This document shows positions 7,127 through 36,445 of a DNA stretch of 40,452 bases, one piece after another. Below the pieces are notes generated by a model. It did not search any database. It was not told where the DNA came from and saw only the letters and a list, made by a program, of their open reading frames with translations. Positions within the stretch are counted from its first letter, which is position 1; every line of letters starts with the position of its first letter. Position numbers and translations under genes: made by a program. The DNA comes from Metallosphaera yellowstonensis MK1 (GTDB taxonomy: Archaea > Thermoproteota > Thermoprotei_A > Sulfolobales > Sulfolobaceae). The DNA lies in the NCBI RefSeq assembly GCF_000243315.1, contig NZ_JH597761.1:296660-337111 (forward strand), in the 5' to 3' direction.

Positions 7127-7139
7127 TAAAAGTAGGTGA

Positions 7140-7257
7140 GGTAATCTGTAACGGAATGGTAGGTGAACCTTATCCTCCTTTATCACGGGCTCACCCAGTT
7201 CTAACCCTTTGACCCGTGGAGAGAACCAGGTGTGGGACCAGGAGAGGGTCAAGTACT
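7140..7257 (+). repeat. 118-bp direct repeat, left copy
   Basis: An ungapped match to 40317-40434 with only two or so substitutions, both within tnpB. Outside these limits the two copies diverge. The pair brackets 33 kb that includes all the hydrogenase genes. Confidence 0.75.
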
Positions 7258-7690
7258 GGTGAGGTTTAACAGTTATCCTCACGTTCTCACCATCAACCTT
7301 CCTCAGAGTAGACTTAACCCTTACGTAAACCTTCTTCAATCTAGGTTTCCTCAGTGAAGCTCGTCCTTTTTCAGCCCTCCTCCAACCTTTCAACACGGAG
7401 TAAGTGTCGCTTATTGCCTTGTCAGCGTAGTGTGAGGTTAGGACGTTGACCTCCTCCAGTTCGTCCCTCAACGTCCTGTAAACCCCTTCTTCTCGGGGTG
7501 GGTTATCTTGACCTTCGTGATGACTTTCTTACCCCTCTTCACTTCCCTCCTCTCAACCTTCGTCTTTTCCCACAACCAGTCTAAAGCCCTCTGCAGTAGG
7601 ACTCTGTAGTTCTCTAATAATACTCTGCTCTCCTCCTTCTTGTTGTTCTTCATGGAGTAAGTTAGGTAGACGTATTCCTCCTCTGGTTGA
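7140..7690 (-). pseudogene. IS607-type tnpB, 3'-truncated and frameshifted
   Basis: The N-terminal part of a TnpB (RNA-guided nuclease of IS607/IS605 elements) is spread over two frames that meet near 7470. It begins with FQPEEEYVYLTYSMKNNKK just after tnpA and continues through YADKAISDTYSVLKGW to LTLSWSHTWFSPRVKGLELG. It stops matching at about 7140, a few bases beyond the stop of the YbjQ gene, so the whole RuvC-like domain and zinc finger are gone. The last 118 bp are almost identical to 40317-40434, part of the second tnpB in this window. Confidence 0.75.
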
Positions 7691-8507: not shown

Positions 8508-10739
8508 GTGCAAACGTTACGAATAGTGGTTTCGGGTTTAGTTCAGGGAGTGGGATTCAGGCCCTTCATATACAGGATCGCCACTGAAAGTAACGTCAAG
8601 GGTTTCGTTAGGAACATGGGAGGAAGTGAGGTGGAGATAGTCATCCAGGGTGGAAAGAGAGAAATCTCCACGTTCTTCTCGCTATTTTACTTGAAGCTCC
8701 CCGCTCCAGCCAGGATAGAGTCCTTGAGGGTGGAGGGATTAGAGGAGTGTAAATTCGGAGAGTTCAGGATTATGCCCAGTTCTCTGGACAGGAGGGAGCC
8801 CAGCCAGATCCCCCCGGATTTCACAGTCTGCGACGACTGCCTGAGGGAGGTCTTAGACCAGAGAAACAGGAGGTACAGATATCCCTTCAACAGTTGCGCC
8901 TACTGCGGACCTAGGTTCTCCATGATCATGGCAATCCCCTACGATAGGGAAAATACCTCGATGCGTGATTTCCCCCTCTGTGAGCACTGTAGTGGGGAGT
9001 ACTCAAACCCCACGGACGAGAGGAGGTTTGACGCCCAGGGGATAAGTTGTCCCATCTGTGGTCCGAGGCTCTTCCTGGAGGACCTCTCAGGGGAGAGGGT
9101 GGAGGGAGATCCCATACTTCAGACAGCCAAGTTACTTTCGGAGGGCCACATTGTAGCGGTGAAGGGTGTGGGGGGTTATCACATAGCAGTCAACCCCTTC
9201 AATGACGACCTCGTGAAGGAGCTCAGGAGGAGGAAGAACAGGCCCGAGAAACCCTTCGCCGTCATGTCGATCTCTACCTCTGTCGTATCCAGGTATGCTT
9301 ACCTGTCCAGGGAGGAGGTGGAGGCTCTGGAGTCTCCCGAGAGGCCCATAGTCCTCCTCAGGAAGAGGGAGGAGAGTCAGCTGTCCAAGTACATTTCCCC
9401 AGGACTTGACAGGGAGGGATTCTTCCTTTATTACACCCCCCTCCACTACCTGATATTAAGGGAAGTTGAGGGGAACTCACTGATCATGACCAGCGGGAAC
9501 AAACACGGATACCCCATGTGCATCGACGAGAAGTGCGTCAGGGAGAAACTCAAGGGGATCGCGGACTACGTCCTCTACCATAACAGACAGATAGTCAACA
9601 GGGTGGATGACAGCGTGATGAAGTTCACGGGGTCGAGGAGACACTTGCTGAGGAGGGGAAGGGGATTCGCACCGCTTTGGATAAGACTGAGGAGGATTGG
9701 ATTGCCGGGCCTGGCGATCGGGGCCGAGTTGGGGAACGCAGGGGGAGTCCTACTAGGCGACAAGGCCATCCTAACGCAGTACGTGGGCGACACGGACAGG
9801 GTGGACAACCTGGTCCAGTTGGAGAGATCCCTCGACTTCCTCCTGAGAACCTACGGGGTCGCTCCCAAAGTCGTGATAACAGATAAGAATCCGGCTTACC
9901 AGAGCAGGAGGTTGGCCAGAAAGTACGCTGAGAGATTCTCGGCCCAACTAGTCGAGGTTCAACATCACTTCGCCCACGCCTTGAGCGTCAGTGCAGAGAG
10001 GGGCGTGGAGGAGGGGATCGCCATAACCATAGACGGCGTGGGGTACGGCGACGATGGGAACGCGTGGGGAGGAGAGATCCTCAGGTTCAGGGGGGCAGAC
10101 TACAGCAGGGAGTTCCACCTCAGATACATACCTTACCCAGGAGGGGACGTTAACGCGCTTAAACCTAGGAGGATGCTGGCTAACTTCCTGGGCACTTTCA
10201 TGGACTGGGAGGAGGCAGGAAAGGTCGCGGGAATTCCGCCCGAGGAGGTAGTTGTGCTTTCTAACCTCAACAGGAGACCTGGACTCCTCACCTCCAGCAC
10301 GGGCAGGTTTTTGGATGCCGTGTCCGCTTACCTCGGGGTGTGCCACAGGAGGACGTATGAGGGCGAACCAGCCATCAAACTGGAGGCTGCAGCTAAGGGT
10401 GGTAAGGTGTTGGACTTGGATTTGCCGGTGAGGGGTAGAGAGATAGATACGGTGGAGGCGTTCAAGTGGCTAGTCTCGCATGACCCACCGTTAGCTGATG
10501 CAGCCGCGACTGTCCTGTACAGGCTCGGGGAGGCCCTAGTCAAGGCTGCCCTGAGGCTGAACCCCGACGTGATCCTGGTCTCCGGCGGTGCGGCTGTCAA
10601 TGAGTACATCCTCAAGGGGATGGAGGACAACTCCCAGGGGATCAGAGTGGTAACACCAAGTAAAGTTCCGGCAGGAGATGGGGGAATAGCCCTGGGACAG
10701 CTAAACTTCTCTACGTTGGCTAATCTGGAAGGGTTATAA
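8508..10739 (+). CDS. hypF: Carbamoyltransferase HypF
   Basis: HypF uses carbamoyl phosphate and ATP to make the thiocarbamate on HypE that becomes the cyanide ligands of the [NiFe] site. All domains are visible in the 743 residues. There is an acylphosphatase domain with SGLVQGVGFRPF at residues 9-20. Two zinc fingers follow, with cysteine pairs at 108/111 and 130/133 and at 158/161 and 181/184. Then come a YrdC-like domain (about 200-380) and a Kae1-like domain with VQHHFAHA and a late LVSGGAAVNEY. The GTG start lies about 28 bases from a TATA-like AGTTAATATC (8475-8484), so the transcript is probably leaderless. The next gene, a hydrogenase protease, follows after 22 bases. Confidence 0.96.
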   Translation: MQTLRIVVSGLVQGVGFRPFIYRIATESNVKGFVRNMGGSEVEIVIQGGKREISTFFSLFYLKLPAPARIESLRVEGLEECKFGEFRIMPSSLDRREPSQIPPDFTVCDDCLREVLDQRNRRYRYPFNSCAYCGPRFSMIMAIPYDRENTSMRDFPLCEHCSGEYSNPTDERRFDAQGISCPICGPRLFLEDLSGERVEGDPILQTAKLLSEGHIVAVKGVGGYHIAVNPFNDDLVKELRRRKNRPEKPFAVMSISTSVVSRYAYLSREEVEALESPERPIVLLRKREESQLSKYISPGLDREGFFLYYTPLHYLILREVEGNSLIMTSGNKHGYPMCIDEKCVREKLKGIADYVLYHNRQIVNRVDDSVMKFTGSRRHLLRRGRGFAPLWIRLRRIGLPGLAIGAELGNAGGVLLGDKAILTQYVGDTDRVDNLVQLERSLDFLLRTYGVAPKVVITDKNPAYQSRRLARKYAERFSAQLVEVQHHFAHALSVSAERGVEEGIAITIDGVGYGDDGNAWGGEILRFRGADYSREFHLRYIPYPGGDVNALKPRRMLANFLGTFMDWEEAGKVAGIPPEEVVVLSNLNRRPGLLTSSTGRFLDAVSAYLGVCHRRTYEGEPAIKLEAAAKGGKVLDLDLPVRGREIDTVEAFKWLVSHDPPLADAAATVLYRLGEALVKAALRLNPDVILVSGGAAVNEYILKGMEDNSQGIRVVTPSKVPAGDGGIALGQLNFSTLANLEGL

Positions 10740-10761: not shown

Positions 10762-11310
10762 ATGAGGGTTCTCGTTTTAGGGGTAGGTAACGTCTTCATG
10801 GGAGATGACGGCTGCGGTGTAGCTGTGGCACAGTCCCTTGAGGGACAGGTGGAGGGGGGAGACGTTAGGGACTTAGGGACCGGAGGGTTACCTGCGGTAG
10901 ACTTCATGAGTAACTACGATTTGGTGGTGATAGTTGACGCAGCTGAAGTCGACGACGTTAAGGTCATAGAGGTGGGCGACAAGGCTGGGGAGGACGAGAT
11001 AGCAGAGACCGTGTTGTCCATGGCCGTTGGGGGTTCACACGGGTTGGGGGTAATGGATCTCATCAACCTGGTCAGGGTCGGAGGCGACGTCCCAAAAATC
11101 GTAATAGTGGGGTGCAGGCCTGAGAGGTTAGAGGTAGGAATCGGTCTCTCCAGGGAAATGGTGGGAAGGTGCGTTAAGGCAATCGAGGTGATATCTGAGC
11201 TACTCTCCAAGTATAACGTCCAGGTGAACGTTGACGGGGCGAAGAGTAGGTTACTCCATAACGAACTTGCTAGGACTCACGATGTTAACGAACGCTCAGG
11301 AACACGGTAG
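10762..11310 (+). CDS. Hydrogenase maturation endopeptidase (HyaD/HycI family)
   Basis: This 182-residue nickel-dependent protease removes the C-terminal peptide of a hydrogenase large subunit once the active site is loaded. It has the family start VLVLGVGNVFMGDDGCGVAVAQ, in which the Asp after MG binds nickel. DLGTGGLPAVDFM follows, then VVIVDAAEVDDV with the second metal Asp, and a GGSHGLGVMDLI segment with the metal-binding His. About 30 residues at the C-terminus extend beyond the usual family length. It is co-transcribed with hypF. Since the cytoplasmic hydrogenase operon has its own protease, this one probably serves the membrane-bound enzyme at 33.3 kb; that pairing is inference. Confidence 0.92.
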   Translation: MRVLVLGVGNVFMGDDGCGVAVAQSLEGQVEGGDVRDLGTGGLPAVDFMSNYDLVVIVDAAEVDDVKVIEVGDKAGEDEIAETVLSMAVGGSHGLGVMDLINLVRVGGDVPKIVIVGCRPERLEVGIGLSREMVGRCVKAIEVISELLSKYNVQVNVDGAKSRLLHNELARTHDVNERSGTR

Positions 11311-11418: not shown

Positions 11419-11652
11419 TCATAGGTCCCTGAGGTTCTCGATTATCTCCCTCAGGTTCCCCTCCACCTCCTCTCTCGAGACGACCCTAATCGCGTAACCT
11501 GCGTGAACTAGGACCAGGTCCCCTTCCTTGGCCTCCACAAGTCCCAGCTCTACCTCCCTCACTATCCCTCCGAAGTCCACCATCGCCCCAGACCCTCTCA
11601 CCTCGATTACCTTCCCCAAATGGGCCATATCGTAGGGATCGTATTCAGACAT
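11419..11652 (-). CDS. HypC-like protein lacking the N-terminal Cys
   Basis: This 77-residue protein shows the HypC/HupF fold pattern: HLGKVIEV, a MVDFGGIVREV strand and the conserved LVLVHAGYAIRVV. Canonical HypC starts Met-Cys, and that cysteine carries the Fe(CN)2CO group. Here the aligned position reads MAHLGKV and the whole protein has no cysteine. The ATG at 11652 overlaps the stop of the upstream hypC paralogue, implying translational coupling; an internal Met at residue 9 would also fit. It cannot carry iron in the known way by itself and may act as partner of the adjacent paralogue. Confidence 0.85.
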   Translation of the reverse strand: MSEYDPYDMAHLGKVIEVRGSGAMVDFGGIVREVELGLVEAKEGDLVLVHAGYAIRVVSREEVEGNLREIIENLRDL

Positions 11653-11875
11653 CCTGGAGCGCCCTCATCAATTCCTGCTGATATCTCAACATCTCAGCGT
11701 ACTCCTCCTCCGTTATCTTCTCCATTATCATCCCGTAACTCACTACCACTGGATCTCCCTCCTTCACATCGTCAAATCCGTTCACTATGACAGGCTCTAT
11801 GGCACCGTTACCGTAATCCACGAAGGCGATCTGCCCCTCTACTGAGACCACCCTTGCGGGGAAACTCAGGCACAT
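11645..11875 (-). CDS. HypC-like protein with N-terminal Cys but no HAG motif
   Basis: The start is placed at the ATG at 11875, giving MCLSFPARVVSVEGQIAFVDYGNG. A TATA box at 11898-11905 lies 26 bases upstream, so the mRNA would be leaderless. A longer reading from 11899 would begin on the TATA box itself. The 76-residue product keeps the iron-binding Cys2 but has VVVSYGMIMEKI where HypC has a conserved H-A-G motif. It is therefore the mirror image of the following gene, which keeps the motif and lacks the cysteine. The pair diverges from the large-subunit-like gene at 11988, an arrangement that recalls HoxL with HoxV in aerobic hydrogenase maturation. Confidence 0.85.
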   Translation of the reverse strand: MCLSFPARVVSVEGQIAFVDYGNGAIEPVIVNGFDDVKEGDPVVVSYGMIMEKITEEEYAEMLRYQQELMRALQDV

Positions 11876-11897
11876 CACTACTATCTTGAAATTGCCC

Positions 11898-11905
11898 AAT
11901 AAAAA
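11898..11905 (-). promoter_or_regulatory. TATA box of the hypC-like pair
   Basis: On the minus strand the sequence TTTTTATT is centred 26-27 bases before the ATG at 11875. This is the spacing expected for a leaderless archaeal transcript, and it decides the start codon of the first HypC paralogue. Confidence 0.55.
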
Positions 11906-11987
11906 CTTGAGTCCCTCAGGGGACGTTGAGGTGCCCTACAGCCCATGACTACTTATTTTCTCGGGATGAAATTGGATCAGGATAGAG

Positions 11988-13142
11988 TTGACTCCCCTCG
12001 ACATAGAGACCATAGAGTTAAGGGTGGAAATAGAGAAGAACGTAGTGACCAAGGTAACGTCGTCAGGGAATAGGCTCAGAGGTTACGAGAGGGCCTTCGT
12101 TGGGAAAGACCCCATCGAACTCTTGAGGATCATACCGAGGGTGTTGTCCACTTGCTCCCAATCCCACGTCCTCGCCTACGCTGAGGCCGTGGCGGAACCC
12201 GGAAATTGGGAGGAGGCCTCAAGGATCATGGCTATCCTCGAGATCGTTGAGAGCCACATGAAGCACCCCTACGCCTACTGGTTCCCCTACCTTGGGGGAG
12301 AGGAGTACAGTTTCCCCTCTGGGATTAAGTTCAGGAGGATAAACGAGGCGACCAGGAAAGTCAGGACGTTAATGGAGAAGGTGGGAGGGAAGTGGCCCTC
12401 GGTGGGACACCTGAGCCCTGGTGCGGGGGTCAGGTTCCGACTTCAGGACCTCATCGATGTGATCAAGGTTTTTCAGGAGCAGACCATAGGCATGGACCTG
12501 GATTCCTTCTTAGAGCTCTCCGACCTGGAGGAGTTGAGGGGCGATTCGGCCCTCCTAAACAAGGTCGAACCGTGGAGGGCAGGGTTGAAAAGGTACTTAG
12601 TGATAGGTTTCCCCTTCCGGGGGGACTTCTCCCCGCACCTGATCACTGACGAGGGTAATACCGTCACTTACTCCGGGCAAACCGTGGAAGTGGGACCTCT
12701 GGCACAGGCACTCTCGGTGGACCCCCTGATCAGGAAGCTCCACCACATGTGGGGACCCTCACCCCTGTTGAGGGAACTCTCCAGGCTCAGGATAGTCGCC
12801 TTTCTCCTCAGGGAATTGAGGGACGTGGATCTGGTATCGGAGGGGGTCAAGATCAGGGGCGGTGGGGTAGGGGGAGTCGAGTCCATAAGGGGTTCCCTCA
12901 TACACATCGTGGACCTGGGAGAGAAGGTAAGGGACTACAGGATAGTCCAACCCACGACCTTCAATGCCTCACCTGGAGGGGCACTGGAGAAGGCAGTTCA
13001 GGGGATACCTGTCAATGACCCCAGGTCTCCCTGGGAGATATCTCTGGCAGTGAGCTCACTGGACTCATGCTTTGTGACTCAGGTGGAGGTGTTCAACGAG
13101 GGTAAGTTTGTGCTCTCTAAGAGGATAGGAGGGTTCTGTTGA
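11988..13142 (+). CDS. Degenerate [NiFe] hydrogenase large-subunit homologue (HupK/HoxV-like)
   Basis: The 384 residues align along their length with hydrogenase large subunits, but the metal-ligand motifs are half lost. The first motif reads RVLSTCSQSH (residues 51-60): Cys56 and His60 are kept, while the other cysteine is Leu53. The second reads DSCFVTQVE (359-367): Cys361 is kept, with Thr364 and Glu367 in place of Cys and His. It cannot hold a standard Ni-Fe site, and there is no small subunit beside it. HupK and HoxV are known large-subunit homologues that act as scaffolds when the Fe(CN)2CO group is built, so I infer that role. The start is TTG at 11988; an upstream stop limits alternatives. 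A C-terminal cysteine (384) is also notable. Confidence 0.78.
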   Translation: MTPLDIETIELRVEIEKNVVTKVTSSGNRLRGYERAFVGKDPIELLRIIPRVLSTCSQSHVLAYAEAVAEPGNWEEASRIMAILEIVESHMKHPYAYWFPYLGGEEYSFPSGIKFRRINEATRKVRTLMEKVGGKWPSVGHLSPGAGVRFRLQDLIDVIKVFQEQTIGMDLDSFLELSDLEELRGDSALLNKVEPWRAGLKRYLVIGFPFRGDFSPHLITDEGNTVTYSGQTVEVGPLAQALSVDPLIRKLHHMWGPSPLLRELSRLRIVAFLLRELRDVDLVSEGVKIRGGGVGGVESIRGSLIHIVDLGEKVRDYRIVQPTTFNASPGGALEKAVQGIPVNDPRSPWEISLAVSSLDSCFVTQVEVFNEGKFVLSKRIGGFC

Positions 13143-13167: not shown

Positions 13168-13545
13168 TCAATGGGCCCTGGACATCTTGTCCGTTATCCT
13201 CTGCGCCGCTAACTTAATTCCCTCGAACGTCAGTTCCACTGACCCCTCCCTGACCTCAGCCAACCCAGATTCTACCAGTTCCCTGAGCGTATCACCGTCA
13301 ACCTCGTCAGCTCCCCTCTTCCTCCCGTAAGCTAAGTCCATGTACAGTACCTGGAGAAAGTCCATCAGACCGTAGAGGGAGGAGAGCTCCCTCACCCCAG
13401 CCTCCGTGAGGTACAATAACCCTCCCTCCTCCTTGACCAGTCCCCTCCTCATCAATCCCTCAAGGTCAACCCCCCGGAGCTTCAGCTCTTCCCTCCTCCT
13501 GGGGGCTACGTGGATCTCCTCGAGAGCAAGCAGGTCAGAAAGCAC
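13168..13545 (-). CDS. Tandem winged-helix-like protein of hydrogenase operon
   Basis: This 125-residue protein seems to contain two winged-helix halves. The first is GLMRRGLVKEEGGLLYLTEAGVREL (about residues 29-54). The second is LVESGLAEVREGSVELTFEGIKLAAQ (about 90-116). It has no cysteines. The gene starts with GTG inside the end of the protease gene (40-base overlap), so it belongs to the cytoplasmic hydrogenase operon. It could be a DNA-binding regulator of that operon or a structural accessory protein. I do not know a named family for it. Confidence 0.7.
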   Translation of the reverse strand: MLSDLLALEEIHVAPRRREELKLRGVDLEGLMRRGLVKEEGGLLYLTEAGVRELSSLYGLMDFLQVLYMDLAYGRKRGADEVDGDTLRELVESGLAEVREGSVELTFEGIKLAAQRITDKMSRAH

Positions 13546-13853
13546 CTAGCCTCACCTTCGTGACCTCTGGAGAAGGCCACGATGGTTACCTTTGCCTTTA
13601 CACCCCTCATCCTGGCCCTCATGAGGTACTCCTCCAGTTCACTGTAGGAGAGCACCCCGGGATATATCTCCTCCAGGCCCAGGACTAGGAACCTGACCGA
13701 CTTGGCTGAATCCACCACGATCACCTCATCCTCGTCTCTCATTAACTCATCCATGGCGTCCAGGTTGGGGCCTATGAAGAGACCCCCGAAGTCCTCCACT
13801 ATCCTTCCACCTTCATCTCCATGGAGTTCGTTCCCTACCCCTATGAGCCTCAT
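13506..13853 (-). CDS. Short hydrogenase maturation protease
   Basis: The N-terminal RLIGVGNELHGDEGGRIVEDF corresponds to the GNxxxGDDG metal site of HycI/HyaD proteases, and VIVVDSAKSVRF carries the second Asp. At 115 residues it is shorter than the usual 150-160 and lacks part of the C-terminal half, though a late His (FSRGHEG) may supply the third ligand. Its ATG overlaps the TGA of the large subunit (ATGA), so it is translationally coupled to its presumed substrate, whose C-terminal extension after the last ligand is only 13 residues. Confidence 0.82.
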   Translation of the reverse strand: MRLIGVGNELHGDEGGRIVEDFGGLFIGPNLDAMDELMRDEDEVIVVDSAKSVRFLVLGLEEIYPGVLSYSELEEYLMRARMRGVKAKVTIVAFSRGHEGEARCFLTCLLSRRST

Positions 13854-15391
13854 AACCTCATCGCCAGTTTCTCCTTTCCTCCGTCCAGGACGTGGACGTT
13901 ACATACCATACAAGCGTCGTGTGACCTGACCACGTGAGCGACCTCAATGGGGTTGGACAGGTCCTCCACTTCAGTTCCCACCAGGGCCATGGTAAGGTGA
14001 CTCGGATTCCCCTCAGGGTCCTCAGGTCCCATGTTTATCTGTGTGGGGGTGACAACCTGGTAGTTCTCTATCTTACCATCCTCCACCACGATCCAGTGTC
14101 CCAAGGACCCCCTCGAGGCCTCAACCAGACCGTAACCCATGGCGAACTGTCTCTCCTGGGGCTTTATATAGGTAGGCCCATTAAAGTCATATGTGTCCAG
14201 GTTATTCAGGATCAGCTCGTGTATTAGGGCCAACCTCACGAACCTGGCCACCTCCCTCGCCAGGACATTTGTACCGAACCTCTTAACCAGGTCAGTCATG
14301 AGCCTGTTCCCAGCTACTACCAACATGGACAACGCTCCCACCTCGGGTGCAACGTACCTGTCCTTGAGCTTATACCTGAAAGTCTTGGTGAAAGTATACT
14401 TTCCCTTCCCGTTGGGTGGGAGAGGGTTAGTCTGGCCCATGAATGGGTTCAACCCTATCCTGTCCCCAAGGTCGTAGGTGTAGAAGGAGTGGGCGACGAA
14501 CTCCAGGACGTTGTTAGGATCGACCTCGAACCTGTCCCACGAGTTTAGATCCAATATTCCCCTACTGAACACCAGCTTCTCCCTGGAGTTAGCCGGGTCG
14601 TAGTCCTCAGGCACGTTGACGTGACCGTAACTCATGAGGAACTGAGATCCCTTCCCTATCCTGTGCCAGCCCATGGATTGACCGTAGTTCCACACCTTAG
14701 ATACGTCTCCCTCGGGGTAGTCCTTGGCCCACTGCTCCAGGTCCTCGACGCTCTCAAGCTCGAGGAATTGGTCTAGGGGTCCTCCCAGGACGGTCCTCTC
14801 CAGGAACTCAGCCGTTATCTGTCTTATTATACCCTTAGCCTTCACAACGTCGTTCGGGAAAGGTTCAGCGGTTATTCCTCCAGGAACCATGGCGGAGCCG
14901 TGGGGCCACTGGCCTCCAAAGATGGCGTAAATCTCGGCGTATCTCTTGGACCACACGACTGCCTGCTTATATGACGTCCCTACGTAGGGGGCCCACCTTA
15001 GCACCATGTCCCTATAGAAGGGTAACTTCTCATACTTCCTGTTGACGGAGTCTATCATGAACATCAGGTAAGTGTGCCTCACGTCGTTCTGTCCCATCTC
15101 AGCCAGGGTGAGGACGTTCCTCAGCCTCACAGCGTTGGGGGGTACCTTGGCTCCGTAGGCCATGTCCAGGGACTTAGCTGCAGAGAGCAAGTGGGATCCA
15201 CCGCAGATCCCACAGATCCTTGGAGTTATGACCAGGGAGTCCATGGGATACTTGCCCTTGAGTATAACCTCAATGCCCCTGAAGAGCCTGGACATGGGAT
15301 AGGCCTTGACTACCTTCCTCCCCTCAAAGATCACCTTGAGGTCCAGGTCTCCCTCCACCCTGTTGAGGGGGCTTATCACCCTCTCATTCAA
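13850..15391 (-). CDS. [NiFe] hydrogenase large subunit, cytoplasmic type
   Basis: The catalytic subunit (513 residues) has both Ni-Fe motifs: PRICGICGGSH (Cys60, Cys63, His67) and DACMVCNVH (Cys494, Cys497, His500). Only 13 residues (501-513) follow the last His and would be cleaved on maturation. It starts with TTG overlapping the small-subunit stop. The absence of a Tat signal on its small subunit places the enzyme in the cytoplasm, as in group 2 uptake or sensory hydrogenases; by family knowledge the best match is the Sulfolobales subgroup 2e implicated in aerobic H2 oxidation. It is encoded in one operon with its protease and a winged-helix protein. Confidence 0.95.
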   Translation of the reverse strand: MNERVISPLNRVEGDLDLKVIFEGRKVVKAYPMSRLFRGIEVILKGKYPMDSLVITPRICGICGGSHLLSAAKSLDMAYGAKVPPNAVRLRNVLTLAEMGQNDVRHTYLMFMIDSVNRKYEKLPFYRDMVLRWAPYVGTSYKQAVVWSKRYAEIYAIFGGQWPHGSAMVPGGITAEPFPNDVVKAKGIIRQITAEFLERTVLGGPLDQFLELESVEDLEQWAKDYPEGDVSKVWNYGQSMGWHRIGKGSQFLMSYGHVNVPEDYDPANSREKLVFSRGILDLNSWDRFEVDPNNVLEFVAHSFYTYDLGDRIGLNPFMGQTNPLPPNGKGKYTFTKTFRYKLKDRYVAPEVGALSMLVVAGNRLMTDLVKRFGTNVLAREVARFVRLALIHELILNNLDTYDFNGPTYIKPQERQFAMGYGLVEASRGSLGHWIVVEDGKIENYQVVTPTQINMGPEDPEGNPSHLTMALVGTEVEDLSNPIEVAHVVRSHDACMVCNVHVLDGGKEKLAMRL

Positions 15392-16352
15392 TCCAGTTCC
15401 CCTCCCTCTTGATGAGGGGTCTCACTAGGTACTGCGGTGCAGCGCCCCTGGCTATGGCTGAGAGGGTTATGTAAGATCCCCTGCTAACCCCCAGGGGTAA
15501 TCTCTTGGGGATCCCTGACCTGTTCTTCTCAGTCCTGAAGAAGTTGAAGGTGGGGAAGTCGAACTCGGTACAGCCCATGCAGGGGGTTCCAACCCTGGTC
15601 TTGCTGCTCTGGTTGTTCCAGAGGATGTTGTTGCACGGACTCCTGGTGTACGACCCCCTACAGCCCAACTCGAAGTAGAGACAGCCCTCCCTGTGGCCGA
15701 GTTCCTTTGAAGCTATCTTGAACGTAAAGTAGGGCTGCCTGGGGCAACCGAACTGGGTTGTGGTGGAGTAGAAGATCTTGGGCCTGTTGAAGTCGTCAAG
15801 GTCCCCCTGGGTTATCCTCTCCTCCAAGATCATGGACAAGGTCGTGAACAGCCACTCTGGATGAACGGGGCATCCCGACAGGTTTATCACGGGGAGTCCG
15901 GAGGAGGACCTGAAGTCCTTCCCCAGGAATCCGCCGGCCTCTTTCCTGTGATATTGAAGACCTGTGGATTGCGTCGGGTTTGGGTCTGCTGCCGGTATAC
16001 CACCGAAGGAGGCGCAGTCACCCACAGCTACCACATACTTGGCCCTCTTGGCTATCTCCCTAACCCAGTGCATCATGGGCTTACCTGCGAACATGTTGTA
16101 CTGACCCGTACCGTTGGGTCCAGTTATGACTGAGCCCTCGAAGAGGAACACGTGAAGTTCCAGCCTTGCCTCCAAGATAGAGTTCAACAGCCTCTTCAGA
16201 TCTCCCCCGCACTCTGGTGAGAGTGAAGGGTGCCACAAAAACCTGGCTTCGTGTTGGTGGAGAAATTCCAGGACGTCCGGGTCTGACGCGTTGAGCATGG
16301 ACAGGGTGTTTCCTCCGCATGCCCCTCCCTGGAGCCAGAGAAGGTTTCTCAT
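15384..16352 (-). CDS. [NiFe] hydrogenase small subunit, no Tat signal
   Basis: The small subunit carries the Fe-S relay. I start it at the ATG at 16352 (322 residues, MRNLLWLQGGACGGNT): a TATA box at 16375-16382 lies 26 bases upstream, and a TTG start at 16373 would fall at the box. There is no signal peptide. Visible cluster motifs include VGDCASFGG, SGCPVHPEW, QFGCPRQPYF, ELGCRGSYTRSPC and TPCMGC. The proximal-cluster motif near the N-terminus is ACGGNT, so the second of the usual two cysteines is replaced by Asn (residue 15). The electron acceptor is not encoded nearby. Confidence 0.93.
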   Translation of the reverse strand: MRNLLWLQGGACGGNTLSMLNASDPDVLEFLHQHEARFLWHPSLSPECGGDLKRLLNSILEARLELHVFLFEGSVITGPNGTGQYNMFAGKPMMHWVREIAKRAKYVVAVGDCASFGGIPAADPNPTQSTGLQYHRKEAGGFLGKDFRSSSGLPVINLSGCPVHPEWLFTTLSMILEERITQGDLDDFNRPKIFYSTTTQFGCPRQPYFTFKIASKELGHREGCLYFELGCRGSYTRSPCNNILWNNQSSKTRVGTPCMGCTEFDFPTFNFFRTEKNRSGIPKRLPLGVSRGSYITLSAIARGAAPQYLVRPLIKREGNWIE

Positions 16353-16374
16353 TTTGTAATGATAGAAACGCAAG

Positions 16375-16675: not shown

Positions 16676-17173
16676 ATGAGCGAGAGAGATGAGGACTACC
16701 AGGAGGGCCTGAACAAAATCAAAGAGATAGTGATATACCTCAATACCACAGGCATCTTAGACAGCATACTGGACTTCGTCAGTGACGAGAATAAGGTGAG
16801 GTCTTTCCTCCAGTCCAGGACCTACAGGGCCGTGATCGAAATGTTGGGAGATCTCAAGGACATGATAGACAGGGGAGAGGTGAGCTCTGAGGACTTCGTG
16901 AACGGAATGATAGCCATTGCGAAGCACATGGACAAGATAGGGAAGATCCTCACTATACTGGACAAGAACGGCGTGCTTGACGTGATGACAGCGGGGTTAG
17001 CTAAGGCGGCCGAGACCATGGTTCAATCGAACAAACAGTCCAACATAGTGGAGTTACTCGCGTCCTTTGACGATCCGGATGTGAAGAAGACCCTAGCTTA
17101 CCTGAGGTTGATGTTGAAGGAACTGGGCAGGGCCGTTGATCCCCTAGTGAAAGGGAATGGTCAACAGAAGTGA
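16676..17173 (+). CDS. DUF1641-family protein
   Basis: The 165-residue, helix-rich, cysteine-free protein fits DUF1641, a family often found beside sulfide:quinone oxidoreductases, formate dehydrogenases or hydrogenases. The characteristic C-terminal part is VVELLASF-like text: IVELLASFDDPDVKKTLAYLRLMLKELGRA. Earlier it has a long amphipathic region (KHMDKIGKILTILDKNGVLDVMTAGLAKAAETM). A TATA box TTTTTAAATA (about 16639-16650) lies 28-30 bases before the ATG. It is transcribed divergently from the hydrogenase operon across the dyad at 16541. A role in membrane or redox-partner association is plausible but unproven. Confidence 0.75.
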   Translation: MSERDEDYQEGLNKIKEIVIYLNTTGILDSILDFVSDENKVRSFLQSRTYRAVIEMLGDLKDMIDRGEVSSEDFVNGMIAIAKHMDKIGKILTILDKNGVLDVMTAGLAKAAETMVQSNKQSNIVELLASFDDPDVKKTLAYLRLMLKELGRAVDPLVKGNGQQK

Positions 17174-19085: not shown

Positions 19086-20213
19086 CTACCTCCTACATCT
19101 CGGGCTGACGTTGACTATCCTGTGGGTGGCCCATATCCAGCAAGTTCCCTCCTGCGACACCATGGGTGCACCCTTGGGATCCTCAGGCTTACAAGTCTTC
19201 CTGTAGAGTGGACACTCTGGGGGATCGATGAGGCCCATGACTACCTCTCCGCACCTAGCACCGGCCACGTACTCGTCCTGTGTCTTAGTTCTGTCCCTGA
19301 TGCCGTACTGAGCCCTAGCGTCCTTCCCCCTGAACTCCTCCTTCAGCCTAAACCCGGCTCTGGGGAACACGGCCACTCCCCTGACGTAACCGTCCTCAAG
19401 GTCGAAGACCCTGTCCATGACCTCCTGTGCCTTCACGTTACCCTCCCACGTAACAGACCTGGTGTACTCGTTCTCAATCCTTGGCCTTCCCTCGTCTATT
19501 TGCTTCAGGATCATGTAGATGGCCATCAGGACGTCTATGGGCTCAAACCCCGTCGCCACCATGGGCTTCTTCGACTTCAGGAAGTACTCATAATATGGCT
19601 TGAGCCCGGTAACCGTCACGGAGTGACCTGCAGAGATGAAGGCATCTATGCCCAGGACGTTCGACTCCATCACTGACCCCTGGATCGCTGGAGTGTACCT
19701 GTATGAGACCAGGAAACTGAGGTTCTCCGGGACTCCCTTGATCATCTCGAAGGCAGTAGCTGGGGCAGTGGTGTCCATTCCCACGGCGAAGAAGAGGAAG
19801 TCCTTATTCGGTTCCCTTCTTGCCATCCTCACGGCGTCCTGAACTCCGTAGATCACCCTCACGTCACCTCCTAGGGCCCTAGCCTCCTCCAGGGACATCC
19901 TCGTTCCCCTGGCCCTGGTCATGTCTCCGTAGGTAGCCACCACGACACCATCCAGGGCTAGTTTCGCAGCGTCGTCTATGTCCGTCGCGGGAGTTATGCA
20001 GACGGGACATCCAGGTCCTGCCCTGACCTCAACGTTCTCGGGAAGTAGGGATCTTATGCCGTAATGGGTTATCGTCCACTCGTGACTCCCGCAAACGTGC
20101 ATTATCATTATGTTCTCCTCAATCTTCTTGGCGAGCTCGGCTATCTTGAACCTCAAGGCCTTGGCGAGGTTCGGGTCCCTATAGTACTTCAGTATTGACA
20201 GGTACTCGCTCAC
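19086..20213 (-). CDS. hypD: Hydrogenase maturation factor HypD
   Basis: HypD is the iron-sulfur scaffold on which Fe(CN)2CO is assembled together with HypC. The 375 residues contain the conserved VCGSHEWTITHYGIR (Cys41), GPGCPVCITP (Cys69, Cys72) and a C-terminal cluster-binding region with GARCGEVVMG, PPECPLY, KTCKPED and EGTCWIWA. The start is a GTG that overlaps the hypC stop as GTGA. Length and motif order are normal for the family. Confidence 0.97.
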   Translation of the reverse strand: MSEYLSILKYYRDPNLAKALRFKIAELAKKIEENIMIMHVCGSHEWTITHYGIRSLLPENVEVRAGPGCPVCITPATDIDDAAKLALDGVVVATYGDMTRARGTRMSLEEARALGGDVRVIYGVQDAVRMARREPNKDFLFFAVGMDTTAPATAFEMIKGVPENLSFLVSYRYTPAIQGSVMESNVLGIDAFISAGHSVTVTGLKPYYEYFLKSKKPMVATGFEPIDVLMAIYMILKQIDEGRPRIENEYTRSVTWEGNVKAQEVMDRVFDLEDGYVRGVAVFPRAGFRLKEEFRGKDARAQYGIRDRTKTQDEYVAGARCGEVVMGLIDPPECPLYRKTCKPEDPKGAPMVSQEGTCWIWATHRIVNVSPRCRR

Positions 20214-20482
20214 TCCCCACCACCCACTATCTCATTGAAGTCCTGCCTCTTCTTCTCCTGAGGTAAGTCCTTGGTCATCTCGTTCCATATCTCCACTGTC
20301 CTCACGGCCTCCTCCTCGTCCACAACCTGGATTGCGTAACCTGCGTGGACCAGGACGTAGTCTCCCACCTTAGCATTGACCAGGGAGAGCAGGATGTTGT
20401 CCCTCACAGTTCCGTTTCCGAAGTCCACCTTGCCGAAATCTCCAGTTATCTCCACAACCTTACCTGGAAAAGCTACGCACAC
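20210..20482 (-). CDS. hypC: Hydrogenase maturation factor HypC, canonical
   Basis: This is the only one of the three HypC-like proteins here with both key features. The N-terminus MCVAFPGKVVEI carries the iron-binding Cys2, and YVLVHAGYAIQVV carries the conserved HAG motif. The 90 residues include a charged tail (LPQEKKRQDFNEIVGGGE). It starts with GTG one base after the zinc-ribbon gene and overlaps hypD, its known partner. Confidence 0.95.
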   Translation of the reverse strand: MCVAFPGKVVEITGDFGKVDFGNGTVRDNILLSLVNAKVGDYVLVHAGYAIQVVDEEEAVRTVEIWNEMTKDLPQEKKRQDFNEIVGGGE

Positions 20483-20483
20483 C

Positions 20484-20738
20484 TCACTTCACCCCATAAA
20501 CCCTCTTCATCTCCTCCCTCTCCGCCTCAGTGAACGAGTAGAGGGGAAAATAGTCCTCGTCGAAGTATATCATGGGCACTCCGCAGTGCCTAGGCACGTC
20601 CACCTCCTTCCCGCAGATGTCACATCGAAGCACGTCCACCCTCCTGAAGTTTCCCCTCTGAGAGTAGGACATGGGTCTCCCACAGTGGTAAGGGACGCTC
20701 TCCTCAGCCCTGCAGATTACACACATGAGTCTCTCCAT
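20484..20738 (-). CDS. Twin zinc-ribbon protein of the hyp operon
   Basis: I start this at the ATG at 20738 (84 residues), ten bases after the hypE stop; a longer open frame would lie inside hypE. It contains two copies of one metal-binding pattern: CVICRAEESVPYHCGRPM (Cys6, Cys9, His18, Cys19) and CDICGKEVDVPRHCGVPM (Cys39, Cys42, His51, Cys52). An acidic tail follows. The pattern should bind two metal ions, zinc or iron. It sits where other operons have hypA, whose product also has a zinc site, but it lacks the N-terminal Met-His nickel motif. The HypA-like role is a guess. Confidence 0.8.
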   Translation of the reverse strand: MERLMCVICRAEESVPYHCGRPMSYSQRGNFRRVDVLRCDICGKEVDVPRHCGVPMIYFDEDYFPLYSFTEAEREEMKRVYGVK

Positions 20739-20748
20739 CTCCCCCACC

Positions 20749-21807
20749 TCAACATATCCTGGGAACCGGGTCCCCCAGAGGTCTCCCCACGTATCTCTCA
20801 CCTCCCACGACTGTCTCCATGACAACTCCCTCAATGTCCTTTCTGACCTCCCCTATTACAGCTGCGTTTTTTCCTAGGGGATGTGAATGCAGAACCGCCA
20901 TGATGTCCCTCACGTACTCCGGGGAGACAGCCAGTACTGCCTTCCCCTCGTTCCCCAACTCGAGGACGTCGATCCCCAGGAACTCCACCGCTGCCCTCAC
21001 CTCATCCTTCACGGGTATTTCGCTCTCCCTTATGTAAATGCCCAGTCCAGACTTCTCTGACCAATCCTGGAGGAGGTCTGCCACTCCTCCCCTTGTTGGA
21101 TCCTTGGCGTCGGCTATGCCTCCAACCTCCATGAGGTTGAGCATGAGGCCGTTGAGGGGAGCCACGTCTGAGGTGATGTTGGACTCAAAGCCCACCCCCT
21201 CCCTCGAGGAGAGGACCGCCACAGCGTGATCCCCTACCGTGCCAGTGACTATTACCTTGTCTCCAGGTCTTATGTTTAATGGGACGAGCCAGTCCCTAGG
21301 TTGTCTCGTCTTCCTCAAGGTCTCAATGTCGTGATCGAGTTCCTTTGGCCTGACGCCCAAACCCGATGTGTTTATCACTATCCTGTCCAGACTTCCCCTC
21401 TCCATGACCTTGGTGTCCCCAGTGACTATGTGAACCTTGGCCTCCTTCGCTGTATCCCTTATGCTGTCGACTATCCTCTCTAGATCACTCTTGGGGAACC
21501 CCTCTTCCAGGATAACCCCCAGGCTCAGGGCTATGGGTTCTCCCCCCATCATGGCGATATCGTTGACCGTCCCTGTGACACTTAACCTCCCTATGTCCCC
21601 TCCCTTGAAGAAGATGGGCCTGATCACGAAGGAGTCCGTGGTGAACACGGTGTTTCCGATCACGGCAGCGTCGTCCATGAGGTCCAGGGGAACTTCTCCG
21701 AATCCGTCACTGAGTCTAATGAAGACCTCCCTTATCAACGTGTGCATATACGAACCTCCGGCACCGTGGAGGAGGGTTATCACGTCTCTACTGTTGACCG
21801 TACCCAT
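20749..21807 (-). CDS. hypE: Hydrogenase maturation factor HypE
   Basis: HypE dehydrates its C-terminal thiocarbamate to thiocyanate, the source of the cyanide ligands. The 352-residue protein has the AIR-synthase-like fold: LLHGAGGSYMHTLI, DDAAVIGNTVFTTDSFV, VNDIAMMGGEPIAL and DPTRGGVADLLQDW. It ends in the required PRIC, whose cysteine is modified by HypF. A TATA box at 21831-21838 lies 27 bases before the ATG, so this is the first gene of a leaderless operon running hypE, zinc ribbon, hypC, hypD, aldolase, unknown. Confidence 0.97.
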   Translation of the reverse strand: MGTVNSRDVITLLHGAGGSYMHTLIREVFIRLSDGFGEVPLDLMDDAAVIGNTVFTTDSFVIRPIFFKGGDIGRLSVTGTVNDIAMMGGEPIALSLGVILEEGFPKSDLERIVDSIRDTAKEAKVHIVTGDTKVMERGSLDRIVINTSGLGVRPKELDHDIETLRKTRQPRDWLVPLNIRPGDKVIVTGTVGDHAVAVLSSREGVGFESNITSDVAPLNGLMLNLMEVGGIADAKDPTRGGVADLLQDWSEKSGLGIYIRESEIPVKDEVRAAVEFLGIDVLELGNEGKAVLAVSPEYVRDIMAVLHSHPLGKNAAVIGEVRKDIEGVVMETVVGGERYVGRPLGDPVPRIC

Positions 21808-32005: not shown

Positions 32006-33313
32006 GTGGTGTATATGGGTCTAACAAGGAGGGATTTCTTAAAGGTATCGGGCGTAACTGCCCTAGGGACTAGCTTAGCCCTGTCAGGACTCTCCTACCA
32101 GGAGCTCCTGGCCAAGGCTAAGGATCCCGATCAGCCCATAAACATAGTGTGGACAGGGAACGGATGGTGCGGAGGTAATACCATAGCCTTCATTGACGCC
32201 ATGAACCCCGCAGTAGAGGACGTAGTAACTGGGGTATACTTCGATGGGAAACCCATTACTCTCAGACAGCCCAGCGTGCCTGAGCTGGGTATGATAAACC
32301 TAGTGTATCACCCAATCTTGATGCCACAGGACAGCATGGCCTATGCCACCATGGAGATGGCACTTAACGGGGAGCTGGACCCCTACGTACTGGTTGTCGA
32401 GGGAACGCTCTTCGACGAGTTCGGAGTGTATTACAAGAAGCCCAGTGGCTCCTTCTGGTGTTCTGCTGGGAGGAAACCGGACGGGAGCGTACTCCTGTGC
32501 GACGAGTTCGTCTTCAACCTCATGAAGAAGGCCTATGCTGTAGTAGCCACAGGGGCCTGTGCAACCTACGGGGGAATTCCAGCTACGACCAACGGGTTGG
32601 GTCAGAGGTCTCCTACTTACGCCATGGGCATGCTGGACGATCCCTACAGGGGCATATACGGCTTTCCCTATTACGCTCACCAGGTCTACCAACAAGGATT
32701 AGCTCCTAACGTAATAGATGAGGACATCTACTCAGCTACCAACTCCCAGGTCAACACTTCCTGGCCAGGGCCCAGTTACCACTGGCTCTCATCTGGAGGG
32801 TTACCCATAGTGTCCATAGCAGCCGACCCACCTGCCGGAGATTGGATAATGAGGACACTAGTTTCCCTAGTGCTCTACGCCAGGGGACTCGGTCCAAATC
32901 CTGCAGACGACCTAGACGTATTCAATAGACCCAAGTTCTTTTACGGGAACGAGACCCATCAGAACTGTCCTAGGGCCGGCTTCTTCGCTCAGGGCATCTT
33001 CGCCTACGAGTTCGGAGACCCACAGTGCACCTACAGCCTGGGATGTAAAGGTACAGAGGCCAACAGTCCAGCACCGAGACTCGGATGGGTAGGAGGAGTC
33101 GGTGGATGTACCAGGGGAGGTGTCTGCATAGCCTGTACTGCACCTGGGTTCCCAGACCTCTACGAACCGTTTTACGCGCCTCCGAACGCACCGACAGTCC
33201 CCAGCACTACACTCTTCGCGGCCGCAGCTGCTGCTGGAATAATAATAGGTGCAGGTAGTTACGCCTTCTCCAGGAGGAAGAGACTCCCACAAACCCCCAA
33301 GTCCCAGAGGTGA
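32006..33313 (+). CDS. hynS: Tat-exported [NiFe] hydrogenase small subunit, membrane-anchored
   Basis: The 435-residue protein starts with a twin-arginine signal (LTRRDFLKVSG), then Fe-S motifs: GWCGGNT (Cys55), GACATYGG, NCPRAGFF, YSLGCKG, GGCTRGGVCIAC. It ends in a transmembrane helix (AAAAAAGIIIGAGSYAF) with a basic tail, which anchors the enzyme on the outer face. This form is known for the crenarchaeal membrane-bound group 1 (1g) hydrogenases such as that of Acidianus ambivalens. Asn58 stands where a proximal-cluster cysteine is usual. GTG 32006 or ATG 32015 could be the start; both keep the signal. It heads a six-gene operon. Confidence 0.92.
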   Translation: MVYMGLTRRDFLKVSGVTALGTSLALSGLSYQELLAKAKDPDQPINIVWTGNGWCGGNTIAFIDAMNPAVEDVVTGVYFDGKPITLRQPSVPELGMINLVYHPILMPQDSMAYATMEMALNGELDPYVLVVEGTLFDEFGVYYKKPSGSFWCSAGRKPDGSVLLCDEFVFNLMKKAYAVVATGACATYGGIPATTNGLGQRSPTYAMGMLDDPYRGIYGFPYYAHQVYQQGLAPNVIDEDIYSATNSQVNTSWPGPSYHWLSSGGLPIVSIAADPPAGDWIMRTLVSLVLYARGLGPNPADDLDVFNRPKFFYGNETHQNCPRAGFFAQGIFAYEFGDPQCTYSLGCKGTEANSPAPRLGWVGGVGGCTRGGVCIACTAPGFPDLYEPFYAPPNAPTVPSTTLFAAAAAAGIIIGAGSYAFSRRKRLPQTPKSQR

Positions 33314-33318
33314 TGTGA

Positions 33319-35556
33319 ATGGCAACTAGTTCTCCCTATTACTTCACGTTCGACTGGACCAAACCGGTCCTCATAGAGCCCATAGTCAGGATAAAGCCCG
33401 AGCTGGGAATTCAGGTCACCTATGATTCCGTGAGCGGTAGGGCCTCTGACGCTTACGCTGCAGCAGGGATGTTCAGGGGATTTGAGATATTCATGAGGAA
33501 CAAGCCGGGGCCAGACGTCATAATGCTCTCCAGCAGGGAGTGCGGCATCTGTGGAGAGCACCACCAGTTCATAGAGAGGATAGCCCAGGAGATGGCCCAA
33601 GGGGGAAACGCCCCTCCACCCCTAGGACTTGAGGGAATAGTGCTGGCCACCGACGCTGCCATGACCTATGACGCCACAGCACACCTGACGGCTCTGGGTG
33701 GACCTGACTGGAGCTCACTGTTCTTCAAGATAGCTGGTTACTTCCCCAGCCAGATTTACGAGATAGCCCAACAGACTCCCCTGAGTAAGGTGGCCCAGGA
33801 GTCGCAGGCCTTCCCAATGGGACCACCCTCAGAGATGGAGATGGCAGGCGTTAAACTGAGAACCGTGGCTGACATCATGGACGCGTTAGTCCCAATAATA
33901 GGGGCATATTTCCTGGAAGGGGCATATGCCTGGAGGATACTTCACGAGGCAGAACTACTCTACTTCCTACGGATTCCACATCCCATCACCATGGTTCCAG
34001 GAGGAATAGGAGTTCCTCCAACCGTTGAGAACCTCCAGAGGTACTTCCAGAGGATGGTTGACGGTACTGCCTGGTTGATGAAGCAGATGGCTGCGTACGA
34101 GTACCTGACGCTCTTCTTAGCGGACTACAACAACGCGTTCGGTATACAGGCCCTCTACGACAAGATAAACGGAACCCTAGGTTTCGCGGAGGAAGGGAAC
34201 AGACCGGGGAACTTCGTATCTTACGGGCAGAGCGACGTCTCTGAGGCACCATCAGTGACTCCCTCGAGTACCTCGGTGTCCCCCTATGACGGCACGTATG
34301 AGAACATGGGTGCGTGGGGGAGAGCTAGGGTGGTCAAGCCAGGGTTAGTGATACAGAAGAACTCCAACTCCCCTCCCACATTGGTCACCAACGACCTGGT
34401 GGACATAAACCTGGGCATAAGGGAGTTAGTGGAGTCCTCCTTCTATACCCCATGGTACGAGAACGGTTCCTTCAACAGTGAGGTTCCGTCCTCGGTGAGC
34501 GGGATAGAACAGGACCCCTCAGGTAACCCCGTGAGTTTCTACCATCCATGGAGGAAGTGGACTATGCCAAATCCACAACCGAGGGCCGTGCCAATGGCCT
34601 ACGGTGCTCCCTACTCTTGGGCAGTGTCCCCTAGGTTTGTTCCATATCAGAACGGGAAACCCATCACCAATCTCTTCTACAACGTGGAGGCAGACCCCAT
34701 GGCTGTCATGTACGCTCAGGTGTTGCAACCGCAGGCCCCTACACCTATCTACACCTCAGACTACCCCTCAGGTTTCGGTGTGAGTTACAACAGCAACGAG
34801 ATGAGTGCCACCTTCGTCCTGCCCACGGTCAACAGTCCTAGGGTGACATTACCTCCGGAGTTCCAGCAGGGGAGCGAGATAGAGTTCAAGTACGTGGCTC
34901 CCTACGCCCTGTCAGGAGGGAAGATAGTGACCAACGCCATAGAGAGGATGAGGGCCAGGGCATTCGAGGCTGGGTTGGACGGAATGGGAATGTGGGTAGC
35001 GTGGATGAGTGCCGTCACCTACTTGAAGCAGGGGAGGACACAGGTCAGTAGTATGCCACCTTCCAGCTGGACCTATAAACAGAACACCAACATAGATGTA
35101 GCCCTAGGCGTGGGCATGAAGGAAGCTCCCAGGGGAGCGCAGTATCACTCTGAGGTCTTCGCCACCGGGACCGGAGTCTCTGTTCCCACGATTAATCCGC
35201 AACAGATGCAACCAACCACAGTCAACTCAGGTCCAAGGGTCAGGAACAGCTACGACGACGGGATTCAAACCATTAAGCCTGCCTCCCCCACTCACGGTGC
35301 TGGAACCTTCGAGGAGGTCATAATGGGTAACCCAGACTACAACATGCCTGGGACTCCCAGATTGACCGTGCTACCGCTAGAGCAATGGGACGGCTTCGAG
35401 TTCGCCCAGACGCTGAGGTCATTCGATCCCTGCTTCGTCTGTGGTGTTCACATGGTTCTACCCAACGGAAAGGCTAGGTATCTAACGCTGGGGGCCCCGA
35501 TAGACCTAAGCAACTCCATTAAGGCGTTCTACAGGTTTGCCATGAAGGTCAAGTGA
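33319..35556 (+). CDS. hynL: [NiFe] hydrogenase large subunit, membrane-bound type
   Basis: The catalytic subunit has SRECGICGEHH (Cys75, Cys78, His82) and FDPCFVCGVH (Cys705, Cys708, His711). A C-terminal extension of 34 residues after the last His must be cut off by a protease. At 745 residues it is longer than most group 1 large subunits, through a central insertion rich in Ser, Pro, Thr and Asn (about residues 300-500) that probably faces the outside of the cell. It would be co-exported with the Tat-bearing small subunit six bases upstream. Confidence 0.94.
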   Translation: MATSSPYYFTFDWTKPVLIEPIVRIKPELGIQVTYDSVSGRASDAYAAAGMFRGFEIFMRNKPGPDVIMLSSRECGICGEHHQFIERIAQEMAQGGNAPPPLGLEGIVLATDAAMTYDATAHLTALGGPDWSSLFFKIAGYFPSQIYEIAQQTPLSKVAQESQAFPMGPPSEMEMAGVKLRTVADIMDALVPIIGAYFLEGAYAWRILHEAELLYFLRIPHPITMVPGGIGVPPTVENLQRYFQRMVDGTAWLMKQMAAYEYLTLFLADYNNAFGIQALYDKINGTLGFAEEGNRPGNFVSYGQSDVSEAPSVTPSSTSVSPYDGTYENMGAWGRARVVKPGLVIQKNSNSPPTLVTNDLVDINLGIRELVESSFYTPWYENGSFNSEVPSSVSGIEQDPSGNPVSFYHPWRKWTMPNPQPRAVPMAYGAPYSWAVSPRFVPYQNGKPITNLFYNVEADPMAVMYAQVLQPQAPTPIYTSDYPSGFGVSYNSNEMSATFVLPTVNSPRVTLPPEFQQGSEIEFKYVAPYALSGGKIVTNAIERMRARAFEAGLDGMGMWVAWMSAVTYLKQGRTQVSSMPPSSWTYKQNTNIDVALGVGMKEAPRGAQYHSEVFATGTGVSVPTINPQQMQPTTVNSGPRVRNSYDDGIQTIKPASPTHGAGTFEEVIMGNPDYNMPGTPRLTVLPLEQWDGFEFAQTLRSFDPCFVCGVHMVLPNGKARYLTLGAPIDLSNSIKAFYRFAMKVK

Positions 35557-35566
35557 GGTATAGGCG

Positions 35567-36445
35567 ATGCTTCCAGTAGTCTTGGCAATAGGCGCATCGT
35601 TGGGGTCGGACTCCCTTTACTGGTGGGGTCTGAACGTAATCTTCCCCCTGGGTCTCCTCTTCTTCGTCTTCGGTGCCATATATAGAATCTCCAGGTACTT
35701 CCTAGGGAGAAGGGTAGTGACCTATGCCACCGCTGGGCTCGGCGCTGAAGTGAAGGAGGCCATTACTGCCATACCGACGCCCTTTCAGTCAGCCGCTAGG
35801 AGGGACCCGTTCCTCATAGTGGAGACAGTGTTCTGGCACATATTCATGCTGGGTGTAGTCGTACTGGTGGGAATTCACATCCTGGCGTGGAACTACATCT
35901 TCGGTAGTATATTCGGCGTCTCCAACCCACTGTGGTTCCTCCTAAAGATCTCCACCCCAGAGCAGTTTACCTCTGCATATCAAATGGGTCTCCTGGGATC
36001 AAACGCCTACTCCCACGGAGGGATACTGAATCCGCTAGGAGCTTGGAACTCGGCTGAAGTCTCTACGTCCACCTTCGACCCTTGGAGCTTCCTTTCGGTA
36101 CTAGTTAACGGAACCACCATGGGGCTTCTAGCCCTAGCGGGGATACTGGGATACCTGGTGACGAGGATAGTTGAGGACGTCACTGGACACAAGAGATTGA
36201 GCTCCTCCGGAGATTACGTCTTCCTCATACTACTCTTCGCAATCATAGTGACTGGCCTAGCTGCCATGTACGACTTTCAGGTTCCCTACTTGGGAATACC
36301 TAACCAGACCAATTGGTACGGACTTCACATAGCTTTGGTTGGAGCGTTCATAGGCTACGTACCCTTCAGCAAGGGATGGCACATGTTCGGCTACTACCTG
36401 GGCAAGGGAATGAGGGGTTATGGCTACGGAAGGAAGAAAAGGTGA
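35567..36445 (+). CDS. Hydrogenase cytochrome b subunit (Isp1/NarI-like)
   Basis: A 292-residue membrane protein with five or six hydrophobic segments and histidines placed as heme b ligands: VFWHIFMLGVVVLVGIHILAW, NWYGLHIALVGAFIGY and FSKGWHMFGYY. It matches the NarI/DsrM-like Isp1 proteins of crenarchaeal hydrogenases and should carry electrons from the outer small subunit through the membrane toward quinone or the Fe-S subunit encoded next. The C-terminus is basic (GKGMRGYGYGRKKR). The next gene begins inside its last nine codons. Confidence 0.85.
   Translation: MLPVVLAIGASLGSDSLYWWGLNVIFPLGLLFFVFGAIYRISRYFLGRRVVTYATAGLGAEVKEAITAIPTPFQSAARRDPFLIVETVFWHIFMLGVVVLVGIHILAWNYIFGSIFGVSNPLWFLLKISTPEQFTSAYQMGLLGSNAYSHGGILNPLGAWNSAEVSTSTFDPWSFLSVLVNGTTMGLLALAGILGYLVTRIVEDVTGHKRLSSSGDYVFLILLFAIIVTGLAAMYDFQVPYLGIPNQTNWYGLHIALVGAFIGYVPFSKGWHMFGYYLGKGMRGYGYGRKKR

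Follow-up and report, generated by a model that had tools for sequence, protein, structure and literature searches.

Within the hydrogenase locus of a heat- and acid-loving archaeon of the Sulfolobales is an intact open reading frame (11988-13142) encoding a paralogue of the [NiFe]-hydrogenase large subunit, in which half of each metal-binding motif has been lost. The window, the whole stretch of 40,452 nucleotides of DNA that was analysed, also carries the genes of two hydrogenases and of much of their maturation machinery (Table 1). The genes of a group 2e hydrogenase lie 0.7 kb from the paralogue and those of a SUL2-type hydrogenase 20 kb from it, both names following an earlier classification (PMC11018855). 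No small-subunit gene is paired with the paralogue in the window. Located near the window ends are transposase-like open reading frames (267-1226 and 39776-40429), and a fragment near 7.1 kb (7061-7471) has a stretch in common with the frame at 39.8 kb.

Table 1. Genes and features of the hydrogenase locus, in positions of the window.
Feature	Position	Strand	Remark
HypF carbamoyltransferase	8508..10739	+	translation
HyaD-family maturation endopeptidase	10762..11310	+	
HypC3, HypC-family protein without N-terminal Cys2 (MSEYDPYDMAHLGKV)	11419..11652	-	
HypC2, HypC paralogue with Cys2 (MCLSFPARV)	11645..11875	-	
Spacer separating the paralogue gene from the divergent hypC2	11876..11987	.	
Half-motif paralogue of the large subunit, putative scaffold for Fe(CN)2CO	11988..13142	+	384 aa, TTG start
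L1 half-motif Leu53-x-x-Cys56-x-x-x-His60	12144..12167	+	lacks the first ligand Cys, retains the second; unchanged among orthologues
L2 half-motif Asp359-x-Cys361-x-x-Thr364-x-x-Glu367	13062..13088	+	retains the first ligand Cys; lacks the second and the terminal His
C-terminal KRIGGFC, last residue Cys384	13119..13139	+	
Short HyaD-like protein, 115 aa, overlapping the hysL end	13506..13853	-	weak similarity to maturation proteases
HysL, group 2e-type [NiFe]-hydrogenase large subunit, full CxxC motifs	13850..15391	-	possible client
HysS, hydrogenase small subunit	15384..16373	-	
DUF1641 protein, probably HysM	16676..17173	+	HucM counterpart (PMC11018855)
HypD	19086..20213	-	
HypC1, canonical HypC of the hypD operon	20210..20482	-	
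HypA-like protein and HypE (HypE C terminus PRIC)	20484..21807	-	
SUL2-type hydrogenase: TAT-type small subunit, large subunit, Isp1 and Isp2	32006..37700	+	likely client

The paralogue matches the Pfam family NiFeSe_Hases (E 1.4e-14), and both of its ends align with HysL of the same locus (30% and 23% identity), the central part of that subunit having no counterpart in the paralogue. At motif L1, RICGICGGSH of HysL corresponds to RVLSTCSQSH in the paralogue, and at L2 DACMVCNVH corresponds to DSCFVTQVE. The alignment confirms that one ligand cysteine remains in each Ni-Fe motif (Cys56 and Cys361) and that the other is replaced (by Leu53 and Thr364) with the spacing exactly kept, as the preliminary description had it. 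The paralogue does not have the four ligand cysteines and the C-terminal His/Arg cleavage site of catalytic large subunits, and the endopeptidase cleavage signature is absent from its L2 region; retained are the pocket residues Arg301 (of RGSL) and Asp359. An AlphaFold model, computed with eight orthologues as input (pLDDT 89.1, pTM 0.90), adopts the large-subunit fold, with the best match among solved structures being the group 2a Huc large subunit (7utd; TM of 0.77 by query length).

A search of 31 genomes of the family recovered eight intact copies, including that of the window, and a ninth that is interrupted. The seven other intact copies are 46-57% identical to the window protein, and 105 positions are invariant across all eight. 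Leu53, Cys56, His60, Asp359, Cys361 and Thr364 are unchanged in all seven, among them the three residues (Cys56, His60 and Cys361) for which the preliminary description had proposed a conservation check. Its reading of the last His as Glu367 holds for the window protein. Among the orthologues position 367 is occupied by E, N or K and never by His; the loss of the His is thus conserved but the Glu is not, and we reject Glu367 as a meaningful substitution. Overlooked in that description was the C-terminal GGFC, which is invariant in all nine archaeal copies, the interrupted one included. For the two closest pairs dN/dS is 0.085 (dS 0.29) and 0.066 (dS 1.66, near saturation), the remaining pairs being saturated or nearly so. 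The paralogue is a constrained protein under purifying selection, not a relic. The earlier view that its motifs do not reflect random decay is thus upheld by the invariance of the orthologues and by dN/dS values of 0.07-0.09; full-motif orthologues and a dN/dS near 1 were both sought, and neither was found.

Nine of the 31 genomes encode the paralogue (G000, G008, G009, G014, G015, G019, G027, G028 and G029), and exactly these nine encode HypC2 and the SUL2 large subunit. The nine are related members of one family, such that this co-occurrence does not represent independent events. Full HysL is encoded in eight of the nine and is split in G014. In G011 and G018, where HysL persists as remnants only, SUL2, HypC2 and the paralogue are all absent, and the paralogue is likewise absent from G001, G003 and G018, which encode HypD and a hydrogenase assigned to a group 1g-like type by similarity only. 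Acidianus brierleyi uses SUL2 as its hydrogenase under aerobic conditions and 1g under anaerobic ones (PMC11018855). The paralogue occurs only alongside SUL2 and, with the aerobic role of SUL2 taken from that study, is confined to organisms that form hydrogenase under O2. The assignment of a single client hydrogenase was considered and rejected, as SUL2 and Hys are not distinguishable by their occurrence across the genomes.

The interrupted copy, in G014 (L071 6946-8402), contains a 1.4-kb insertion with a transposase-like open reading frame. HypD is absent from this genome and the SUL2 large-subunit frame is intact despite the broken paralogue; the hydrogenase system seems to be in the process of being lost there. 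Beyond the family, a survey of 398 genomes from the phylum yielded no further orthologue; the remaining matches listed score as ordinary large subunits, and none of the 21 out-of-family loci read contains a half-motif protein. The nearest named relative carrying the locus is Metallosphaera javensis AS-7, the sole match in one contig search. A search of the nine SUL2-bearing genomes for HypX gave no acceptable match, so the CO of the cofactor would have another source there, or would be made by an enzyme not yet recognised. The HysL proteins of G019 and G015 (L068 7421-8917 and L070 7019-8521) end at the motif His, without a cleavable C-terminal peptide, and other HysL proteins have short tails after it. 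HoxC-type subunits likewise end at the motif His and have no peptide to be cut.

Divergently adjoining the paralogue in all nine genomes that carry it, and absent from all other genomes of the family, is hypC2. Its product (MC[LI]S.PA[KRV]V) retains Cys2, the N-terminal residue that is essential in HypC, and forms an orthologue group of its own, apart from HypC1, HypC3 and the HypC of 1g loci. As with HoxL and HupF, HypC2 is a partner HypC paralogue in the cluster besides that of hypCD; the C-terminal extension of HupF is missing from it. HypC3, lacking Cys2, has orthologues in ten family genomes, two of them without the paralogue. The start codons of hypC2 and the paralogue are 44-113 bp apart in seven genomes, and in the compact intergenic regions (44-57 bp in most orthologues) TATA-like boxes precede leaderless-looking paralogue starts. 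In the remaining two relatives (G008 and G009) the gap is 1.4 kb, and within it lies a radical-SAM-like sequence (CNLRCEMC; L064 7844-9298 and L065 7932-9375), the frame of which is open across 339 codons in G009 and is present as shorter open pieces only in G008.

The ligand pattern of the paralogue recurs in HoxV and HupK. Cupriavidus necator HoxV reads PRLFALCGEAH and DPCVPYTVE, with the same two cysteines lost and kept as in the paralogue and with the His replaced. All 13 HoxV/HupK proteins examined retain the second Cys of L1 and the Cys of DPC and lack the first L1 Cys, and in 11 of the 13 the last L2 Cys is lost, two Azospirillum proteins retaining it. The paralogue thus has the same Cys left in each motif (Cys2 in L1, Cys1 in L2). 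The C-terminal Cys, together with GGFC, is absent from all 13. HoxV is reported to bind the apo-large subunit and to bear Fe(CN)2CO but no nickel; for Escherichia coli HycE, the second Cys of L1 (Cys244) is regarded as the probable first docking site of the Fe group, with Cys241 being needed for contact with HypC (PMC12134894). Cys56 of the paralogue is the counterpart of HycE Cys244, and the counterpart of Cys241 is lost.

We propose, with a probability of about 0.6, that the paralogue is a non-catalytic, HoxV/HupK-like scaffold or carrier in hydrogenase cofactor assembly, taking Fe(CN)2CO from HypCD to the aerobic hydrogenase or hydrogenases. In such a relay, Fe(CN)2CO made by HypCD would move to the paralogue, with Cys56 as its first ligand and HypC2 Cys2, Cys361 or the C-terminal Cys384 as the second. 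Owing to the loss of the HycE Cys241 counterpart and of the last bridging Cys, the paralogue would neither lock the iron nor bind nickel, and would hold the Fe group reversibly, shielded from O2. HypC2 would then carry Fe(CN)2CO on to the apo-large subunit of SUL2, of Hys or of both, where nickel would be added and the tail cut. Several observations weigh against a scaffold: the paralogue resembles HoxV/HupK little overall (18% in the profile alignment), and less than it does the 2a/2e enzymes; HybE, rubredoxin, other bacterial hup genes and HypX-like genes were not found; the co-occurrence is confined to one family; and the SUL2 genes persist in G014 with a broken paralogue, though HypD is gone there too. 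In HypE the C-terminal Cys carries the cyanide precursor; that its likeness to Cys384 marks a functional link is speculation. Taken from sequence comparison, the pattern suggests that archaea own a HoxV/HupK-like helper for building the hydrogenase metal centre, probably of independent origin.

The ancestry of the paralogue bears on this last point. In a joint tree the archaeal paralogues and HoxV/HupK group together, opposite all true large subunits (82/87), and do so also when the motif columns are removed (82/73). This grouping, along with the common ligand pattern and similar length, would be expected if the paralogue were a true member of the HoxV/HupK family, acquired from bacteria by gene transfer, which would rival the proposed ancestry and leave the proposed working untouched. 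However, HoxV/HupK are monophyletic (100/99) with the paralogue outside them, and the tree program warned that two long branches meet. With HoxV/HupK omitted, the paralogue falls into the group 2 clade (99/97), with 2a/2e (85/80), and with the paralogue omitted, HoxV/HupK fall beside 2b (93/83). Because the long branches meet and each group moves once the other is omitted, we reject the joint phylogeny as proof of common ancestry. AU tests did not reject the paralogue with 2e and 2a (p 0.315) or with 2e (p 0.12). The hhalign profile scores of the paralogue are far higher to 2a (278) and 2e (265) than to HoxV/HupK (165), the latter scoring 163 to 2a. We therefore regard descent from HoxV/HupK as the less likely origin, in a sample of 13 HoxV/HupK sequences in which bridging bacterial ones could be missed.

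The most likely ancestor of the paralogue is a large subunit of group 2 (2a/2e-like) and not HoxV/HupK, and an independent origin of the two from different group 2 branches is probably the better reading of the trees and profiles. The phylogenetic comparison with HupK/HoxV and large subunits proposed beforehand thus places the paralogue outside the HoxV/HupK clade, and near 2a/2e when the long branches are separated; the suggestion that the likeness may be convergent is favoured by the leave-one-out trees and is not proven. A fuller version, which we hold tentatively, is that a group 2 large subunit independently became an archaeal Fe(CN)2CO carrier by losing the same two ligands as HoxV/HupK, with the invariant C-terminal Cys acting alongside a dedicated HypC2, either as an additional cofactor ligand or as a thiol for the handover, in what would be a convergent cofactor relay for a hydrogenase made in air.

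Alternatively, the paralogue could be a cofactor-free chaperone or decoy, a mimic of the apo-large subunit that holds HypC2 or a small subunit, or regulates maturation, and never binds Fe(CN)2CO. Such a role would fit the loss of two of the four ligands and the adjoining gene of a HypC partner, and stabilisation has a precedent in HupF, the levels of which drop without HupK (PMC3534401), but a pure mimic needs no invariant Cys56, His60 and Cys361 along with Cys384, and we consider it improbable. Still less probable is a diverged subunit, catalytic or sensory, that holds a different metal site (such as one with Fe only, or one of two Cys and a His); the fold and the pocket residues are kept, but the middle of the large subunit and a paired small-subunit gene are both missing, and the regulatory 2b enzymes retain all four cysteines. 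A decaying duplicate of hysL is refuted for the family as a whole and barely credible, for although the paralogue has evolved faster than HysL (46-57% as against 56-74% identity) and one of nine copies is broken by an insertion, the half-motifs are invariant across several genera at dN/dS of 0.066-0.085, and the one copy that is not intact sits in a genome that has lost HypD.

If the scaffold reading is correct, a second lineage, in the other domain, that has lost and kept the same ligands would show which residues a scaffold needs (the second L1 Cys and the first L2 Cys) and would tie its function to aerobic hydrogenases. For structural studies, the archaeal locus offers a scaffold and a HypC that are paired in nature and presumably thermostable, and with the private C-terminal Cys it adds a new element open to testing. 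Among the papers searched, none contains both HupK and Metallosphaera, and none was listed for HoxV together with Sulfolobales.

Among known systems, HoxV (C. necator) and HupK (Rhizobium leguminosarum) are, like the archaeal protein, large-subunit paralogues of about 360-384 residues, from which the terminal His, the cleavage tail and the middle of the large subunit are missing. A HypC paralogue is found in their clusters also, and they too are restricted to organisms with aerobic hydrogenases, HupK and HupF being confined to bacteria whose hydrogenase is made with O2 present (PMC3534401). Unlike them, the paralogue is archaeal, forms a separate clade at 18% profile identity and has an invariant C-terminal Cys; His60, always kept in it, is Gln in many HupK. 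Its gene is divergent from hypC2, whereas the bacterial genes follow the order hybE-hoxV/hupK-hypA, and no HybE, rubredoxin or other bacterial hup gene was seen in the archaeal cluster. Nearest to the paralogue by profile score and fold are the group 2e and 2a large subunits (HysL and Huc), which have all four cysteines and the terminal His; the paralogue is about 130 residues shorter and is without a small subunit. The HoxC-type regulatory hydrogenase (group 2b), another of the group 2 type, is paired with a small subunit and keeps all four cysteines. Owing to the shared ligand pattern, the pairing with a HypC and the link to aerobic hydrogenases, the parallel to HoxV/HupK is anatomical, genomic and ecological, and the counterpart beside HypC-like genes envisaged in the preliminary description is supported at the level of anatomy, by the HoxV ligand pattern, a private HypC2 in nine of nine genomes and its occurrence only in genomes with hydrogenases of aerobic type.
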